This document shows positions 1,985 through 8,567 of a stretch of 8,567 nt of DNA, piece by piece (the stretch's first letter is position 1; the number at the start of each line of letters is the position of its first letter). Both the position numbers and the translations under genes were made by a program. Under the pieces are notes generated by a model. It saw only the letters and a list, made by a program, of their open reading frames with translations, made no database searches and was not told the origin of the DNA. This DNA is from Methanomassiliicoccaceae archaeon (GTDB lineage: Archaea > Thermoplasmatota > Thermoplasmata > Methanomassiliicoccales > UBA472), in assembly GCA_016919565.1 (NCBI GenBank), contig JACXTO010000138.1, positions 1 through 8,567 of the forward strand, read 5' to 3'.

Positions 1985-2914
1985 ATGAGCGATCTCATCA
2001 GCATTGGCCAGATGGGCTACTATGCCAAGTGGTTCTTCAAATCGAAGTTCGGCAAGAAGGGGCCATTGGTCAATACCATGATCATCAACTTCAACTGCAA
2101 CCTCCGCTGCAAGCATTGCAGCATCTCCGGCAACGCGGACAAGCTGCCGACCCCCTTCCAGATCGATTTCGAGAGCGCCAAGGGGGAGATGGAGGAGCAA
2201 TACAAGAAAGGCGCGAGGATACTCTTCTTCGAAGGCGGGGAACCGACCCTCTGGAAGGATGGCGAAAGGGACCTGCGCCACCTGATACAGGCCGGTAGGG
2301 AGGTGGGCTACTTCGTCATCGGCTACACCACCAATGGAACCAACCCCATCATAGAGGACAGCGATGTCGTCTCCGTCTCCTTGGACGGTCCTAAGGAGAT
2401 CCATGACCTGATACGCGGGGAAGGCACCTACGACAAGCTGATGGCGAACCTGGCGAAGACGACCCACCCGAACATCTTCGCCAACATGACCATAATGAAG
2501 CACAACCTCGCGAACGTCAAAGAGACGGTGGAGCTCGTGGCCAAGAACGAACGGATCCGCGGCATCATGCTGAATTTCATCACTCCACCGCCGTACGACA
2601 TCGCACTCATGCTGGAGGAGAAGAAGCAGGTAGTGGACCTCGCGCTCCGGATGAAGAAGCAGGGCTACCCGATCCTCAACACCACCAAGGCGCTGAGGGA
2701 CATGCTGATAGAGGACTTCGGAGCGCTGTGCCAGGATTGGGTCTCGGCCTTCGTTCTTCCGGACCGCTCGCATTACGGCGGCTGCCCGATGAAGGGGACG
2801 GAGTCGTGCAAGAAATGCGGCTTCGACGCGGTCCGGGAATACCGCCTGATCGTGAAGGGGAGCCCGAGCTCCATCACGCAGATGTCGAGAAGGTTTGCAT
2901 ACTCAAAGAAATGA
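1985..2914 (+). CDS. Radical SAM protein with C-terminal auxiliary cysteine cluster
   Basis: This 309-residue protein carries the radical SAM signature CNLRCKHC (Cys38, Cys42, Cys45; CxxxCxxC), which binds the [4Fe-4S] cluster that cleaves S-adenosylmethionine. GGEPT (84-88) is the SAM-binding GGE motif, and VSLDG (130-134) matches the strand-4 region of the family. Four more cysteines near the C-terminus (Cys249, Cys267, Cys275, Cys278) could bind an auxiliary iron-sulfur cluster, as in SPASM/twitch proteins. The N-terminus has an amphipathic, basic YYAKWFFKSKFGKK stretch before the barrel, loosely recalling HpnH-type lipid-pathway radical SAM enzymes. The substrate is unknown. The ATG at 1985 has no well-spaced SD; GGCGGAG at 1964-1970 is too far away to decide it. 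Met10 is an alternative start. The gene converges on and overlaps the UbiA gene by 41 bp, so any shared pathway is inferred from proximity, not from an operon. Confidence 0.9.
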   Translation: MSDLISIGQMGYYAKWFFKSKFGKKGPLVNTMIINFNCNLRCKHCSISGNADKLPTPFQIDFESAKGEMEEQYKKGARILFFEGGEPTLWKDGERDLRHLIQAGREVGYFVIGYTTNGTNPIIEDSDVVSVSLDGPKEIHDLIRGEGTYDKLMANLAKTTHPNIFANMTIMKHNLANVKETVELVAKNERIRGIMLNFITPPPYDIALMLEEKKQVVDLALRMKKQGYPILNTTKALRDMLIEDFGALCQDWVSAFVLPDRSHYGGCPMKGTESCKKCGFDAVREYRLIVKGSPSSITQMSRRFAYSKK

Positions 2915-3833
2915 CGACCAGCACCGCCTGGACGAGGGACAGCCTCAGGGCATCGAACACCGGGCGCATCTCCCGGGACTTGTCCTCCTTGTTGCGCAGG
3001 TGCCTTATCATGCTCACAGCGAACGGGAGAGTAAGGAACAGCAGCAGAAAAGTCCAGTTGTGGAGAGCTAGCACCATTACCAACCCATACAGCACCACCA
3101 GGATGCCAATCAGGATGCTCGTGACCTTGTCGACCCCGAAGCGGACCACCAGGTCCTTCTCGCCCGCGGCGATGTGCGCCTCCTTCCCTGACATCTCGTC
3201 GACTATGCGCATCATCATCGCCCCGATTCCGACGATGATGCCAACTATCAGCGCAGGCCAGGAGAACTGCTGGGCGATGACGTAGTAGCTGAAGAATGAA
3301 ATCATGGCGAAGCTCGCGAGCACGTCCAGCTCGCCAAGTCCGCGGGCGCCGAGGTTCAGCGGGGGCGCGGTGTAGAAGTAGCTCAGGAAGAAGGCTATGG
3401 CGCCGAGCACGAGAACGATCCATCCACCATACAGCATGATGGGGATCGACAGCGCCGCCGCCCCGACCGCCAATAGGACCAGTATCGTCTTTCCCGCCTT
3501 GTCGGATATCAGGCCGCGATCGAACGAGTTTCCCTGCCAGTAGATGGAGTTGCCGCCTTTCTCCTTAACGACGATCTCCTCGAACGCCTGGTTCAGCAGG
3601 GTGAAGCGCAGCTTGTCCGCCCCGCTCTTGTGGTCGAAGTAGTCGTTGGACAAGTTCACGAACAGCGCCAGGAAGAGAACGTCAAGCGGGATGAGGAAGG
3701 CCATGAGCCATTCCTGCTTCAAGGTGAGGGCGAATGCCACGCCGGTGATGGATGCAAGGACGAAAGGCAATGTCCAGGCGACCCTGAGAACATTCTTGAC
3801 CTTGTAGCTCAGGGAGTAGTGCTTTGCTTCCAA
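2874..3833 (-). CDS. UbiA-family prenyltransferase, MenA-like
   Basis: This 319-residue polytopic membrane protein has about eight to nine hydrophobic helices. The first Asp-rich motif, NDYFDHKSGAD (Asn63, Asp64, Asp67, Asp73), is of the MenA type and binds Mg-prenyl diphosphate. YTAPPLNLGARGLGE (154-168) is the other conserved family block. The second Asp motif, normally like DYEAD before AAGK, reads GKEAH (216-220) before AAGEKDLVVRFG, so the usual aspartates are not at their places. Asp212 and Glu213 lie just upstream and may substitute. Family members attach a polyprenyl chain to an aromatic or other acceptor in the membrane. It lacks features I would expect of the archaeal geranylgeranylglyceryl-phosphate enzyme, such as the 'RPIPSG' block. 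The start is TTG at 3833, supported by GAGGTGA (3838-3844) four bases upstream and no ATG nearby. It is the last gene of the operon, 67 bases after the SDR gene. Confidence 0.88.
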   Translation of the reverse strand: MEAKHYSLSYKVKNVLRVAWTLPFVLASITGVAFALTLKQEWLMAFLIPLDVLFLALFVNLSNDYFDHKSGADKLRFTLLNQAFEEIVVKEKGGNSIYWQGNSFDRGLISDKAGKTILVLLAVGAAALSIPIMLYGGWIVLVLGAIAFFLSYFYTAPPLNLGARGLGELDVLASFAMISFFSYYVIAQQFSWPALIVGIIVGIGAMMMRIVDEMSGKEAHIAAGEKDLVVRFGVDKVTSILIGILVVLYGLVMVLALHNWTFLLLFLTLPFAVSMIRHLRNKEDKSREMRPVFDALRLSLVQAVLVVISLSMQTFSTSA

Positions 3834-3837
3834 CCTC

Positions 3838-3863
3838 TCACCTCGCCTCCGAAAGCGGCGAAG
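3838..3863 (-). promoter_or_regulatory. Ribosome binding site of the UbiA gene, partly inside a hairpin
   Basis: On the minus strand GAGGTGA (3844-3838) is a near-full match to the archaeal anti-SD and decides the TTG start at 3833. Just upstream, CTTCGCC (3863-3857) can pair with GGCGAGG (3847-3841) around a nine-base loop. The 7-bp stem includes one G-T pair. The right arm of the stem includes the first four bases of the SD, so folding would partly hide it. The role is unproven. Confidence 0.4.
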
Positions 3864-3900
3864 GGATTAAACTCCTTCTCTTGAAGTCGGGCGATCGATG

Positions 3901-4896
3901 CTATTTCAGATAGCCGTTCGCTCTATACCAGTCCACGGTCTCCTTCAGACCGTCGGGAAGGCTGTGCTTTGGATGGTATCCCAATTCTCTCCGGGCACGC
4001 TCGATGCTGTACCATCGATCGACCTGGAACGTGTTCATGGAATCTATCCTCCAGATGAAGTCCGGCTTCCTTATCAGCCAATTGAATGCCTGGACCGGCG
4101 CTGCGAGCGCCTTGGCAATGAGCACCGGAACATGCCACCTCGGCAGGTCCTTCCCGACTATGGAGGCAAGGATGCCATAGACCTCATCGTAGGTGTAGGC
4201 TCGCGAGTCGGTGATGAAGTAGGTCCTCCCGATCGAGACCTCTGGCTTCTCCAAGGCTAGCATGAAACCTTGGACGACATCATCGATGTGGGCGAACTGC
4301 ACCCTCTTCCTGCCGTCGCCAATGACAATATTGGAAATCCAAGTGTTGGCAAGTGAGACGATGAACCAATACGAAACGTCATCCAGGTTCCTTGGCCCAT
4401 AGATGCCAGATGGTCTGATGATGGTAAAATCGATCCCTTTCTTCCGATATTCTCGGACCAGGTTCTCAGCGCGAAACTTGGACCTACCATATTCGTAGCT
4501 GGATTCACATGGCGAGTCCTCGTTGGCTGGCGGTTCCGGGGTCGGGCCCATTGCCTCGGTGCTGGAGCAATAGATGAGCCTGTGGACCCCGTTCCTCAGC
4601 ATCGCCTCCATGAGCAACTGGGTGCCCCAGACGTTGATGGTCTGGTATTTCTCCTTGCTCCCCTTGAATGAATAATAAGCAGCTAGATGGATGACGGCGT
4701 CCACGCCCTTCGTGATTCTATCGAGGCTTTCCGGGTCCGTCAGATCTCCCACCCGCAGTTCCGCTCCAAGCTTAGCAAGGAGGGCGGTGTCGCTATCCTT
4801 TCGTACCATCCCTACCACGACATGCCCCCTTCGGGTCAGTTCCTCCGCCACGTAGCCGCCAATAAACCCCGATGCCCCTGTAACCAGGACCCTCAA
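3901..4896 (-). CDS. Extended SDR: NAD(P)-dependent epimerase/3-beta-HSD-like oxidoreductase
   Basis: This 331-residue protein has an N-terminal TGASGFIGG (6-14), the GxxGxxG nucleotide-binding motif of extended short-chain dehydrogenases. The active site has Ser111/Ser112 (YCSST) and the Tyr136-x-x-x-Lys140 pair in YEYGRSK. RPSGIYGP (161-168) and the substrate-domain block FAHIDDV (201-207) are typical of the epimerase/3-beta-hydroxysteroid dehydrogenase/dihydroflavonol reductase branch. Length is normal. The family includes sugar epimerases, 3-beta-HSD, OleD and HpnA-like proteins, so the reaction cannot be fixed. Next to an aldehyde-forming LuxC/LuxE pair, a keto/hydroxyl redox step on a lipid is a reasonable inference. 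The start is TTG at 4896, within TTGA that overlaps the LuxC stop. GGAGG (4904-4908) lies seven bases upstream. The in-between ATG is out of frame and meets a stop after one further codon. Confidence 0.9.
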   Translation of the reverse strand: MRVLVTGASGFIGGYVAEELTRRGHVVVGMVRKDSDTALLAKLGAELRVGDLTDPESLDRITKGVDAVIHLAAYYSFKGSKEKYQTINVWGTQLLMEAMLRNGVHRLIYCSSTEAMGPTPEPPANEDSPCESSYEYGRSKFRAENLVREYRKKGIDFTIIRPSGIYGPRNLDDVSYWFIVSLANTWISNIVIGDGRKRVQFAHIDDVVQGFMLALEKPEVSIGRTYFITDSRAYTYDEVYGILASIVGKDLPRWHVPVLIAKALAAPVQAFNWLIRKPDFIWRIDSMNTFQVDRWYSIERARRELGYHPKHSLPDGLKETVDWYRANGYLK

Positions 4897-6359
4897 GCCA
4901 TTTCCTCCTTGGACGGGGTCTCGCGTTGGTACACGGCATAGGTGAAGAGGGCGGCCATGGGAATTCCATCGTAAGGTTCGGTGGCGGAGCGCATGAACAT
5001 GTCCTCGATCGGAACGAAACGATAGATTCCAGATGGCGTGAGGGACCAGAGCAACTCTTTCCTAATGTCTTCGGGCAAAGCTGTCCCCACGGTCTGCACC
5101 CTGTCCACGCCTCGGAAGGCGCTCATGTTGGGCAGCTGTGCCACGAACGCCGCCAGTCGGTCGGTCGAATCGAGCACCACCATCTCCAGGAATCTGCGGC
5201 GGCCGTGCACGTTAAAAGATGGAAAGGATTCCACCACCGCCTCTAGATTGGAGGTTCCCTTGCTCACCGCCAGGGTCCATGGGTTCTTCAGTGACGATGA
5301 GCTCATGACTTTGGAGCCATGGTACGTCAGGACCTTCTGTGCACTATTACGCACGAAAAGCGCATCGTTTGATGGTTCGACTGGGTACTGCAGCCCGATC
5401 GCGTCCAGATGATCGCGCACCTTGATGGCGAAGCGCAGCGATTCCGGGTATGGTCCGATGTAGAATGCCAGGGTCGGCGAGGAGCAGAGCTGCTGCTCGT
5501 AGAGGATCATGTTCAGCGCCAATCCCCTGGCCGCAGAATCGTCCGCCCTCGAGCCCCCTATCACCGCGATGCCAGTGAGGGGGCCGTTCACGAACAGCCT
5601 GGGGCGATGCTCGTTCTTCATCAGCTTCTGGCCGATCTCGCTGCGGGCTGGCTCACCGCCCCAGAAGTTCACCACCCCGAAATCGCCCTGTCCCAATGCC
5701 TCATCCAGCGTTTGGCTGTTATGCCCCATGTAGCTGATAGAGAGGGAACGCGCCATCAAGTGGGCCGCGGGGGACCGGCTCATCAATCCTTCCAGGCCGG
5801 AGAAGACCTCCACCACGGCCCGATAGTTGGAGATGGATGGCTTGAGCAGTGTGAAGTTGCCGGAGACCAAGGAGATGATGGTAGGGATGAGCGTCGGGAT
5901 TACCGAGTTCCCTGAGGATATTATGAAGGTCGGGCCAGCGGGCAGATGCCTCATCCCTTCCCCCTCTCGCAGCTCGACGTAACCCTCTAATGCCTCCGCC
6001 CCGCCGACCAGCGACCCATCCAGGTTCGCTCGGATCTCATCAGCATCGAGCACCTTTTTCACGAGGGAGAACTCCAGGTCGATGAGCTTCTCGGGATATC
6101 CGGTGGCAACGGCCAGCTCCTTCTTGACCGAATCCAGCTCTCCGTCGATCATCCTCTGCTGCCATATCTCTCCCAGCATCGATACCACCTGCAGCCTTTC
6201 CTCCAACGGAAGATCGCAGAGCTCGGCCTGCAATTGCCGACCCTCCTTTAGCATGGCATGGAGGGATTTCGGGCTCAGTTCCTTCACCAAGATGCCTCCG
6301 TCGAGCTTGACCTCGATCGTCTCCAGCTCCCCGCCCAGATAGAACGGTTCGATGCTCAT
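4893..6359 (-). CDS. LuxC-family acyl-CoA/acyl-protein reductase (aldehyde-forming)
   Basis: This 488-residue member of the LuxC family (aldehyde dehydrogenase superfamily) would reduce an acyl thioester to an aldehyde with NADPH through an acyl-enzyme. The likely nucleophile is Cys292 in YEQQLCSSPTLAFY, the family's 'QQxCSSP' block. HLPAGPTFIISSGNSV (138-153) and the LLKPS segment (171-175) fit the nucleotide-binding half. Gly-rich NFWGGEPA (231-238) also fits. In bioluminescent bacteria LuxC works in a complex with LuxE; here LuxE is encoded directly upstream, but no luciferase genes are visible. I chose the ATG at 6359 over an in-frame start at 6425. It forms an ATGA overlap with the LuxE stop, has GGAGGG (6366-6371) six bases upstream, and the longer version adds 22 implausible residues read from inside LuxE. 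The stop overlaps the SDR start by four bases. Confidence 0.92.
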   Translation of the reverse strand: MSIEPFYLGGELETIEVKLDGGILVKELSPKSLHAMLKEGRQLQAELCDLPLEERLQVVSMLGEIWQQRMIDGELDSVKKELAVATGYPEKLIDLEFSLVKKVLDADEIRANLDGSLVGGAEALEGYVELREGEGMRHLPAGPTFIISSGNSVIPTLIPTIISLVSGNFTLLKPSISNYRAVVEVFSGLEGLMSRSPAAHLMARSLSISYMGHNSQTLDEALGQGDFGVVNFWGGEPARSEIGQKLMKNEHRPRLFVNGPLTGIAVIGGSRADDSAARGLALNMILYEQQLCSSPTLAFYIGPYPESLRFAIKVRDHLDAIGLQYPVEPSNDALFVRNSAQKVLTYHGSKVMSSSSLKNPWTLAVSKGTSNLEAVVESFPSFNVHGRRRFLEMVVLDSTDRLAAFVAQLPNMSAFRGVDRVQTVGTALPEDIRKELLWSLTPSGIYRFVPIEDMFMRSATEPYDGIPMAALFTYAVYQRETPSKEEMA

Positions 6360-7627
6360 TGCACTCCCTCCTTGGCCGCCATCATCTCTTCCAACGTCCC
6401 GCCGCAGGCGCGCTGCAGCTCCCAACCCTCCTTAATCGTCAGCCTGCGCTTGAACTGGAACTCGCGACCGTAGTAGCGGTCGGAGGGGTGCGACGACATT
6501 ATGTCCCCAGGATAGAAGCATTCCAGCCAGGAGGTGGTGAAGGGATTGAAGATGCTAAGGATCCCTTCCCCGTCCCCCTCGATCGGCTCAAAGGTTCTAG
6601 GGTCGAGCAGTAAGACCTCCGACAGCGGGTAGGGCATCTTGTCCATAACGCCATGATGGTCGATTAGCGCGGTCAGCGTCTCGGTCATTCCCAGCACGTC
6701 CATGAATGGAGCTGGTCTCGGCTCGCCCTTCTTGGTCTTGGCGGTGAACTGCTTGCGCGACAGCTCCACGATATTGTCGTAAGGCGGGAGGTCGGCGAAG
6801 CCTTTGCTGCCGCCGCCTGTCACTACCACACCGCCCCTTCCCAGATGGACCGGTGGAGAGCCAGTGGCCAGCTTCTGCACGACATATTTCGACCAGGTCA
6901 GTTCCTCCATCCTCTTGGCGAGGAGGTACACTCCCGCCGGAGGGGTGAAGAAGAGCTTGGGCTGCTGCTTGGCCTTGAGGAACCTCATGATGCGCTTTCG
7001 GTTGGGCTCTAGCTTCTGCCAAGGCTTGTTTCCCTCCATACCTTCCTGCAGGTCCATGCCGTAGATGAGCTCGATGCCCTTGGATTCCAAGGCCAGCTCT
7101 ACGAACGCCACGAAGCTGAGGCGATAGCGCAGCTCGGGAGCGGCCATGAACAGGGCAATGCCTTCGTTCTGGTCCAATGTATCTCCGTAAACGTACTCGA
7201 AAAGCACCGCGTTTGCCTTGACCATGATGGCCAAGTCCAAGGGGCTGCGATAAAGTTTCACCGGGGCCCGCCCGGTCGTCCCGGATGATTGGAAGCTCTC
7301 CCCGTTCTCCTGGACGTCTTTTATCAAGAACATCTTCTGACCCTCCCCCCGCAGCATATCTGATGGGACTGCCAGCTTGGCTAGGTCCTCGATGCCCGCG
7401 TGCTTCGGGTCGATATCGAGACGGTCGAATAGATCAACGTAATAGGGATTGTGGCGGGCAAAGAACGACAGGCAATCGCGGGCCATCTGTTTGCGCATCT
7501 GGACTAACTGGTCGGGTGATTTCTTGAACAGGCTGTCCCCTTGTATAAGCTCCCAGATTCTGGCGACGTACGGATCTTTGAGGAGCGGGCTCTGGGAGGC
7601 GCGGTCGAAGATGTCGTTGACCGTCAT
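6356..7627 (-). CDS. LuxE-family acyl-protein synthetase (ATP-dependent acyl activation)
   Basis: This 423-residue protein is of the LuxE/PaaK-like adenylate-forming type. SFQSSGTTGRAPVKLYRS (111-128) is the ATP-phosphate-binding loop, and MDVLGMTET (309-317) corresponds to the adenylate motif. FYPGDI (371-376) fits the conserved 'GD' region. LuxE uses ATP to activate a carboxylic acid and carries the acyl group on a cysteine near its C-terminus before handing it to LuxC. Cys408 in QRACGG, 15 residues before the end, is in the right place for that cysteine; Cys370 is an alternative. It is the first gene of the operon and overlaps LuxC by ATGA. The ATG at 7627 is the earliest start, since an in-frame TGA lies 18 bases before it. 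No SD is visible, so a leaderless message is likely, and T-rich CTTTTGTTTC (7656-7647) is at a suitable distance for a weak TATA box. The acid substrate is unknown. Confidence 0.92.
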   Translation of the reverse strand: MTVNDIFDRASQSPLLKDPYVARIWELIQGDSLFKKSPDQLVQMRKQMARDCLSFFARHNPYYVDLFDRLDIDPKHAGIEDLAKLAVPSDMLRGEGQKMFLIKDVQENGESFQSSGTTGRAPVKLYRSPLDLAIMVKANAVLFEYVYGDTLDQNEGIALFMAAPELRYRLSFVAFVELALESKGIELIYGMDLQEGMEGNKPWQKLEPNRKRIMRFLKAKQQPKLFFTPPAGVYLLAKRMEELTWSKYVVQKLATGSPPVHLGRGGVVVTGGGSKGFADLPPYDNIVELSRKQFTAKTKKGEPRPAPFMDVLGMTETLTALIDHHGVMDKMPYPLSEVLLLDPRTFEPIEGDGEGILSIFNPFTTSWLECFYPGDIMSSHPSDRYYGREFQFKRRLTIKEGWELQRACGGTLEEMMAAKEGVQ

Positions 7628-7701: not shown

Positions 7702-7788
7702 ATGCCCAGAACAAGTATTTCGGCATGTGAGAAGAGGCCAGAAAGGAATAAGATGGGGCGCATCATCTTTATTCAGCATGAACTCTGA
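7702..7788 (+). CDS. Possible 28-residue leader ORF coupled to the downstream gene
   Basis: ATG at 7702 opens 28 codons (MPRTSISACEKRPERNKMGR, then IIFIQHEL) ending in TGA at 7786-7788. It is preceded by the strongest Shine-Dalgarno match in the window. Its stop lies eight bases past the ATG of the next gene at 7778, in a different frame, an arrangement that allows translational coupling. The peptide is basic, with no recognised family and no clear membrane segment. The next gene has no obvious SD of its own, which gives this ORF a plausible purpose. Against it: the ORF is short, and composition gives no independent support. Confidence 0.3.
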   Translation: MPRTSISACEKRPERNKMGRIIFIQHEL

Positions 7789-8272
7789 GACCATCAACGC
7801 GCTGAACTGCTATCGGCGGATGGGTTACGAGGACGTGAGCGAGGACTTCGCGGACGAGATCGAATCCATCCCGGACCAGACGGCGAAGCAGGAGTACGTG
7901 AAGCGCGAGGTGGAACGGGTCGGATCGCTGTTCAGGCGCATCTCCGAGGCCATCCTGGAGAAGCATAGCGACTCGGATTTCGAGGACATCGTGGTGGCAT
8001 GCAAGGCGCTGATGGACCGGGACAGCGCCGGAACGGTGGTCATCGTCGGAGACGTGATATTCGACGAGGTCACGATAACGCCCCAGGCGGAGGCGATCAA
8101 GAGGTCCATCGAGCAGGTGATTGCGCACCAGCAGCTCGAGCTCAAGACCGAGTACGAGGTCCAGGAAGTGGTCTGGGCCCTGGACTTCGCCCTGAAGAGC
8201 CTGACAGACTGGGAGTTCGCCAGCGAGCAGATCGTGCTGGTGAAATACTGCGAGACCGGCGACCCGTGCTGA
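7778..8272 (+). CDS. Hypothetical acidic helical protein, 164 residues
   Basis: I do not recognise this family. The translation starts MNSETINALNCYRRMGYEDV and is acidic and largely helical in character. Clear amphipathic stretches lie at about 35-62 (rich in Lys/Arg/Glu), 104-125 and 126-145. No membrane segment or signal peptide is seen. Four cysteines are at 11, 75, 158 and 164, the last two in the C-terminal YCETGDPC, too sparse to call a metal site. Third-position G/C bias matches the flanking genes, which supports real coding. The start at 7778 (ATG) is preferred over an in-frame GTG at 7727, whose extra 17 residues look untranslated and lack an SD. The gene is divergent from LuxE across 150 bases, so the two could share a control region. 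No function is proposed. Confidence 0.75.
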   Translation: MNSETINALNCYRRMGYEDVSEDFADEIESIPDQTAKQEYVKREVERVGSLFRRISEAILEKHSDSDFEDIVVACKALMDRDSAGTVVIVGDVIFDEVTITPQAEAIKRSIEQVIAHQQLELKTEYEVQEVVWALDFALKSLTDWEFASEQIVLVKYCETGDPC

Positions 8273-8339: not shown

Positions 8340-8567
8340 TTAATCCTGTTCGAGCTCCTCGCTGTCGAACGCCGAAGGCTCCTCGATGACATGGAAGAGG
8401 ATGCCAGCGGGATTGTTGATGTGGCATCTGCCCTCCCGCCCTTCCCAGATGACGACCTTCCAGCCTTGGGAGACGAGGTCTGCCCTCGCCACCTCGATGT
8501 CCGGGACGATTATCTCCAGGATCGGGCCGAGCTCCGGTCCTTTCTCGATATGGAGACTGATGTCATC
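8340..8567 (-). CDS. VOC/glyoxalase-like protein, C-terminal part (cut by window edge)
   Basis: The frame is open from the right edge to TAA at 8342-8340, giving 75 residues that begin DDISLHIEKGPELGPILEII and end EEPSAFDSEELEQD. The order is: strand (LEIIVPDI), helix (EVARADLVSQG), strand (WKVVIWEG), then a loop and two strands (GRCHINNPAGILFHVIEEP). This is the second half of a beta-alpha-beta-beta-beta module of the vicinal oxygen chelate superfamily, where 'DPxGxxxxxxE'-like endings are common (here NPAGILFHVIEEP). An acidic tail follows. The superfamily includes glyoxalases, dioxygenases, epimerases and resistance proteins, so no reaction is assigned. The N-terminal half and start are outside the window. 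Confidence 0.65.
   Translation of the reverse strand, partial: DDISLHIEKGPELGPILEIIVPDIEVARADLVSQGWKVVIWEGREGRCHINNPAGILFHVIEEPSAFDSEELEQD

Follow-up and report, generated by a model that had tools for sequence, protein, structure and literature searches.

The stretch of DNA analyzed here (the window, 8567 bases) is one entire contig (C154) of a genome from the archaeal order Methanomassiliicoccales (1.06 Mb, 63% complete), and carries five clustered genes which appear to fall into two distinct sets. The first set, termed the trio, lies on the minus strand and comprises the genes for a LuxE-like acyl-activating protein, predicted to be an acyl-protein synthetase (7627-6356, an open reading frame (ORF) of 423 aa), a LuxC-family thioester reductase (6359-4893, an ORF of 488 aa), and an extended short-chain dehydrogenase/reductase (SDR), predicted to reduce the carbonyl compound released by LuxC (4896-3901, 331 aa, with a TTG start). 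The second set pairs a UbiA-family membrane prenyltransferase on the same strand (3833-2874, 319 aa) with a radical S-adenosylmethionine (SAM) protein on the plus strand (1985-2914, 309 aa). These five genes had been recognized in the initial annotation along with an ATGA overlap of the LuxE-like and LuxC genes (6356-6359, minus strand), a TTGA overlap of the LuxC and SDR genes (4893-4896, minus strand), and a gap of 67 bases between the SDR and UbiA, all of which are confirmed in the ORFs and the sequence. The radical SAM gene had been placed tail to tail against UbiA; the two are indeed convergent, but rather than merely abutting, they share 41 bases at their 3' ends (2874-2914). The five reading frames represent more than chance, because all of them are found again with high identity in related genomes, and four of the five proteins exceed their Pfam cut-offs, the exception being the LuxE-like protein. 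The archaeal origin proposed earlier agrees with the nearest named records, namely the metagenome-assembled genomes fen_65 and fen_33 of Methanomassiliicoccaceae, in which the LuxC identity is 83%.

The LuxE-like protein appears to be a distant relative of LuxE, and the earlier LuxE-type label stands by way of its relatives and family profiles, through which alone this kinship is visible. Two of four tested relatives reach the cut-off of the PF04443 model at 24.9 bits (P0049, 30.1 bits; P0060, 25.9 bits), while P0044 and P0046 give no match, and the best sequence match of the family profile among solved structures is, weakly, LuxE itself (PDB: 7xc6_E). The predicted structure (pLDDT 83.5) displays the fold of the PaaK-type N-domain, with residues 7-330 of PaaK1 spanning residues 30-399 of the model. 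The C-terminal domain usual in such ligases is missing, both by length and in the model, and the tail instead bears a cysteine, Cys408 (codon 6404-6406, minus strand), 15 residues ahead of the C-terminus. This residue is invariant in all 120 family members listed, including the window protein, and in 26 of 26 LuxE-like proteins of the order. Its placement corresponds to the C-terminal acyl-acceptor cysteine of LuxE, as located in PMC8301110, and it is predicted to accept an acyl group in the same manner.

The LuxC protein passes the PF05893 model (77.2 bits, cut-off 21), and in both sequence and fold is closest to LuxC of luminous bacteria, albeit at an aligned identity of 17%; in fold, the other aldehyde dehydrogenases are more distant from it than LuxC is. 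The cysteine of its YxQQxC motif, Cys292 (codon 5484-5486, minus strand), is found in 120 of the 120 family members listed and aligns with the catalytic cysteine of 7xc6_A. The LuxC-LuxE fatty acid reductase of Photobacterium phosphoreum (PDB: 7xc6), the best solved sequence match of both archaeal profiles, weakly so for LuxE, shares with the archaeal proteins the LuxC fold and catalytic cysteine, a C-terminal cysteine following an adenylating domain, and the organization as a gene pair. It differs in that the present versions reside in archaeal hosts, with a LuxE-like protein in the window that falls below Pfam detection, and include the SDR as a third gene, with neither LuxD nor LuxAB among the nine window proteins scanned. 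The SDR itself passes the Epimerase model (PF01370, 160.7 bits, cut-off 20.9), and the residues typical of extended SDRs (G7, G10 and G13 of the GxxGxxG motif, the catalytic serine S111, and Y136 and K140 of the YxxxK motif) are conserved in at least 97.5% of the 120 family members listed. Its closest solved relative is a 'putative oxidoreductase' (PDB: 3wj7, E 9e-41), which we take to be Gox2253, a carbonyl reductase.

Almost all intact copies of the trio keep the three genes side by side. A LuxE search across 147 genomes of the order yielded a match of any kind in 35, with full-family versions in 27 and a remnant (G130) or weak matches in the other 8. Gene maps, drawn from larger stretches of 26 genomes, from the window itself and, for G017, from a 3-kb contig, cover the 27 LuxE-positive genomes and G130. 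In these the LuxE, LuxC and SDR genes are grouped, the exceptions being contig ends (G131, G017 and G026) and G126, where LuxE and LuxC occur with no SDR orthologue at E≤1e-30. In the phylum as a whole, the trio is found in 13 of 389 sampled genomes, every one of which belongs to the order of the window. Beyond the phylum, linkage was gauged solely from identical sizes of the longest contigs bearing the best 120 proteins of each family, an indirect measure that is silent on gene order: the LuxE/LuxC, LuxE/SDR and LuxC/SDR comparisons yield 34, 18 and 22 identical sizes, respectively, versus 0.47, 0.55 and 0.42 in size-shifted controls. On the basis of these coincidences, we judge the trio to be linked in other archaeal groups too. 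The divergent locus of G126 (L057) retains its LuxE (49% identity) and LuxC (42%) without the SDR, UbiA or the radical SAM gene, and the checked catalytic positions, including Cys408, are intact in its LuxE. Carriage of the trio on a virus or plasmid was considered and rejected: in a scan of viral contigs with the LuxE alignment, none of the 54 stretches fitting the pattern could be confirmed as a relative, and a plasmid search gave a single weak match from Streptomyces.

In the second set, UbiA passes the PF01040 model (75.2 bits, cut-off 34.2), and its first Asp-rich motif (N60, N63, D64, D67 and D73) is conserved in at least 97% of 42 orthologues. It resembles the MenA-type members of the UbiA family, which provide its best NCBIfam matches, but remains under every MenA cut-off (TIGR00751, 63.2 versus 102.15 bits; TIGR02235, 88.1 versus 225 bits), and differs further from them in being paired with a radical SAM gene. 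Menaquinone synthesis via the futalosine route was considered and rejected, given that PF02621 (the MqnA/MqnD type of that route) is absent from all 19 genomes of the order tested, while 4 of the 14 control genomes contain it. The radical SAM protein passes PF04055 (65.4 bits, cut-off 29.5) and fails the PTO1314 model TIGR03961 (58.9 bits, cut-off 306.05); its CxxxCxxC motif (C38, C42 and C45) and four C-terminal cysteines (C249, C267, C275 and C278) are present in at least 97% of 42 orthologues.

UbiA orthologues, defined by our own cut of E≤1e-30, occur in 63 of the 147 genomes, and the radical SAM gene (E≤1e-40) in 21 of the 389 genomes of the phylum, all within the same order. The distributions of the two match: among 61 relatives, 41 have both and 18 neither, and in the remaining genomes, G002 and G145, the single gene found reaches a contig end. 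Of the 42 genomes measured, 41 have the two genes in convergent orientation (in G016 both lie on one strand), and the overlap amounts to 38-47 bases in 30 of the 42 and to 12-16 bases in three more; the measurement comprised 42 of the 49 loci with both genes, the seven omitted being mostly cut by contig ends and convergent in appearance. The overlap is kept across families of the order, in many cases to the exact base, with precisely 41 bases in 18 of the 42. An arrangement this long-lived may permit antisense regulation. As several near-complete genomes of the order lack both genes, including G034, G035, G037 and G038, the pair is probably not needed for core energy metabolism.

The trio and the UbiA-radical SAM pair are two separable modules, which are lost independently of each other. 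In the family f1 (22 genomes), the trio adjoins UbiA in 13 genomes, is cut in G131, and is reduced to LuxE and LuxC in G126; in the other seven it is broken or not found, with UbiA and the radical SAM gene kept (G130, G134, G136, G141, G142, G144 and G146). The case of G144 is weaker, as its contig starts just ahead of UbiA and the genome is 82% complete. Remnants of the trio persist at the same spot in four of these: G130 keeps a LuxE N-terminus interrupted by a stop, G136 the end of an SDR, G142 an SDR carrying two stops, and G146 an SDR that is split. LuxE is in turn present without a UbiA orthologue or a radical SAM match in G017 (67% complete), G019, G021 and G126; only weak UbiA-family matches of 23-27% identity are found in G019 and G021. 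The initial annotation had treated the cluster as a single pathway, and had made this depend on whether homologues in related genomes are neighbors. They are for LuxE, LuxC and the SDR, which are co-conserved, and in 14 of the 22 genomes that carry LuxE as well as UbiA, where the two are adjacent, but not in the remaining eight, where they lie apart (G008, G026 and G104-G109). Co-occurrence of LuxE and UbiA exists as a trend, but UbiA is kept in 41 of 120 LuxE-negative genomes and its orthologue is not found in 5 of 27 LuxE-positive ones, two of which are incomplete (G131, 64%, with LuxE at a contig end, and the above-mentioned G017). The genus g16 is divided between trio genomes without the pair (loci L041 of G021, L043 of G019 and L012 of G017) and pair genomes without the trio (G018, G020, G022 and G023), although the numbers are small, three versus four, and some of the genomes are incomplete.

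Given the gene families, the conserved catalytic residues, the grouping of the trio and the separate loss of both sets observed above, we favor, with moderate confidence, a reading in which the two sets likely serve two pathways, the trio being predicted to reduce a carboxylic acid to an aldehyde and then likely an alcohol, and the UbiA-radical SAM pair likely making some other, prenylated compound. From the anatomy of its proteins, the reaction route of the trio can be inferred as follows: the LuxE-like protein would use ATP to convert the acid to acyl-AMP and load the acyl group onto its own Cys408; its arm would then hand the acyl group to Cys292 of LuxC, where NAD(P)H-dependent reduction of the thioester by LuxC would yield an aldehyde, with the SDR likely reducing this to an alcohol. 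Neither a fatty-acid synthase nor an acyl carrier protein or LuxD-type gene is found among the scanned proteins of the window, and the acid would therefore come from elsewhere in metabolism. UbiA, judging from its MenA-like features only, could prenylate an aromatic or quinone-like acceptor made or modified by the radical SAM enzyme.

Several observations weigh against this reading, beginning with the chemistry of the trio, which is a prediction for proteins none of whose members has a known activity. Taken alone, the LuxE-like protein of the window matches no Pfam family and does not reach the PF04443 cut-off; even at E≤0.1 this model matches just 2 of 30 aligned members, and P0049 and P0060 are the two bearing it among the 120 family members listed. 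The profile match to 7xc6_E adds up from two weak pieces, each of which fails when taken singly, and this chain is not among the 50 structural matches listed for the LuxE-like model. PF05893 is unspecific, giving matches above the cut-off in 7 of 14 well-known control genomes (Escherichia coli and others), and the LuxC membership therefore rests on the profile match to solved LuxC together with the fold comparison. Moreover, the LuxC protein scores far under the cut-off of the long-chain LuxC equivalog NF052251 (31.4 versus 750 bits), and hence luminous bacteria probably use a different substrate. The top NCBIfam model for the SDR is of the sugar-epimerase type (HpnA, TIGR03466; 183 bits, under the cut-off of 367.65), and its step may accordingly differ from aldehyde reduction. 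With respect to the separateness of the two sets, a functional tie between the trio and UbiA still has room. They are adjacent, though only in f1 (13 genomes) and f2 (G001) out of six families, and they co-occur positively, with UbiA present in 22 of the 27 LuxE-positive genomes compared to the above 41 of 120 (Fisher p 9e-6, kinship ignored). Further, a single LuxE clade is rejected for f1 (p-AU 0.009) and for f1 with G001 (p-AU 0.0001); the f1 test comprised 13 rows, with G126 and the partial G143 omitted, and both tests were run after the tree had shown the split, so they are not blind.

The best-placed alternative, which we nonetheless consider unlikely, has the SDR acting on a sugar or beta-hydroxy substrate and the trio modifying a glycan or else a polar head group, a role presumed for LuxE and LuxC in bacterial flagellin glycosylation islands. 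Besides the HpnA-type score of the SDR, it draws on the occurrence of luxE and luxC with a 3-oxoacyl-ACP reductase in such islands of Aeromonas (PMC7874193) and of LuxE and LuxC in those of Enterobacteriaceae (PMC4875605), where, as in the trio, LuxE, LuxC and a reductase come together outside light emission. The islands described in the two papers differ, however, in holding glycosyltransferases and acyl carrier proteins, neither of which was recognized beside the archaeal trio when the neighboring proteins were inspected by eye, no profile search being made, and the flanking genes of the trio vary between families.

A single pathway, as proposed in the initial annotation, in which a reduced acid is joined to a polyprenyl chain, is not supported as stated in view of the two modules seen in the relatives. 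An amended version, in which the aldehyde or alcohol from the trio is prenylated by UbiA and tailored by the radical SAM enzyme to yield either a redox carrier of the membrane or a modified lipid, with single-module genomes making a shorter version, appears rather improbable. It could account for the adjacency in 13 of the 22 f1 genomes and in G001, where the LuxE-LuxC-SDR-UbiA-radical SAM order is as in f1 despite different outer flanks, for the spacing between the SDR and UbiA ORFs, which is 38-77 bases in 9 of 11 intact pairs (187 in G132 and 411 in G133), and for the excess of UbiA in LuxE-positive genomes. Against it stand the separate loss in seven f1 genomes, the trio-type genes without the pair in G017, G019, G021 and G126, and the eight genomes with LuxE and UbiA apart. 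The f1 adjacency says little, because synteny in this family also keeps neighbors of other function, such as GAPDH and acetolactate synthase (the latter named by eye), and the co-occurrence statistic ignores kinship. The non-clade LuxE tree, in which G001 groups with f6, where the trio sits apart from UbiA, fits in-situ replacement and repeated arrival beside UbiA alike; the latter would favor a functional tie, and the UbiA-radical SAM tree lacks resolution at the decisive depth.

Also to be weighed is a route without an acyl-S-LuxE relay, in which the LuxE-like protein would adenylate an acyl or aryl acid and transfer it to CoA or a carrier protein, the resulting thioester being the substrate of LuxC. 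The closest solved folds among the matches listed for the LuxE-like model are indeed PaaK and 2-hydroxyisobutyryl-CoA ligase, and some members are labelled phenylacetate-CoA ligase by JGI. EhpF (PDB: 3hgu, 3hgv and 3l2k), from phenazine antibiotic biosynthesis, where according to PMC3175449 EhpF-O convert phenazine dicarboxylic acid into the antibiotic, differs in having a lower Z than PaaK against the model. We find this route decidedly doubtful, as it would leave the invariant Cys408 without a role in a protein that lacks the C-terminal domain of the ligases. The most speculative proposal, and one we would not presently defend, is that an archaeal LuxE-LuxC reductase with a dedicated SDR makes an alcohol block and has repeatedly settled beside the UbiA-radical SAM pair in two families of the order, feeding a membrane lipid or redox carrier of a new, prenylated kind. 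A methanophenazine-like carrier was considered and set aside for want of a gene set to compare with, its route being described as largely unknown in PMC6315138 and PMC5852551. Fatty aldehyde production for light is dismissed, as the absence of luciferase reported earlier is upheld, and none of the nine scanned window proteins belongs to a LuxAB or LuxD family; luxC, luxE and luxD have been used for fatty aldehyde production in E. coli, as stated in PMC4090904. Butanetriol tetraether lipids were considered as the product of the trio, and no link was found in the literature search.

That search, which covered the titles and abstract starts of open-licence papers, turned up none describing the archaeal trio or the UbiA-radical SAM pair. 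So far, LuxE-LuxC reductases are on record for luminous bacteria and for flagellin glycan islands; a coherent archaeal branch across several phyla, with the SDR as third gene, would make acyl-protein thioester reduction a part of archaeal metabolism, and would raise the question of which acid is reduced, and in the service of what lipid or cofactor. The pair would represent a second lead, pointing to a prenylated compound as yet undescribed in these relatives of methane producers.

The surroundings of the two sets offer some further observations. In the window, the trio is preceded by a gene for a 164-aa protein with no Pfam or NCBIfam match (7778-8272) and by another truncated at the window end (8340-8567), both of which recur beside the trio in the close relatives G127 and G128. 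In all six g26 genomes (G104-G109; loci L048 and L050-L054) the trio is preceded by a pyruvate carboxylase gene, with genes for a biotin ligase, a BioY-like protein and an ECF-type transporter further upstream in the five with enough contig (all named by eye), and the flanks in f5 and f4 differ again from these. Finally, a DUF5654 gene (1327-1581 in the window) occurs near UbiA and the radical SAM gene in many f1 loci and lies directly upstream of UbiA in 10 of 11 f5 loci holding the latter, making it a possible third partner of the pair.

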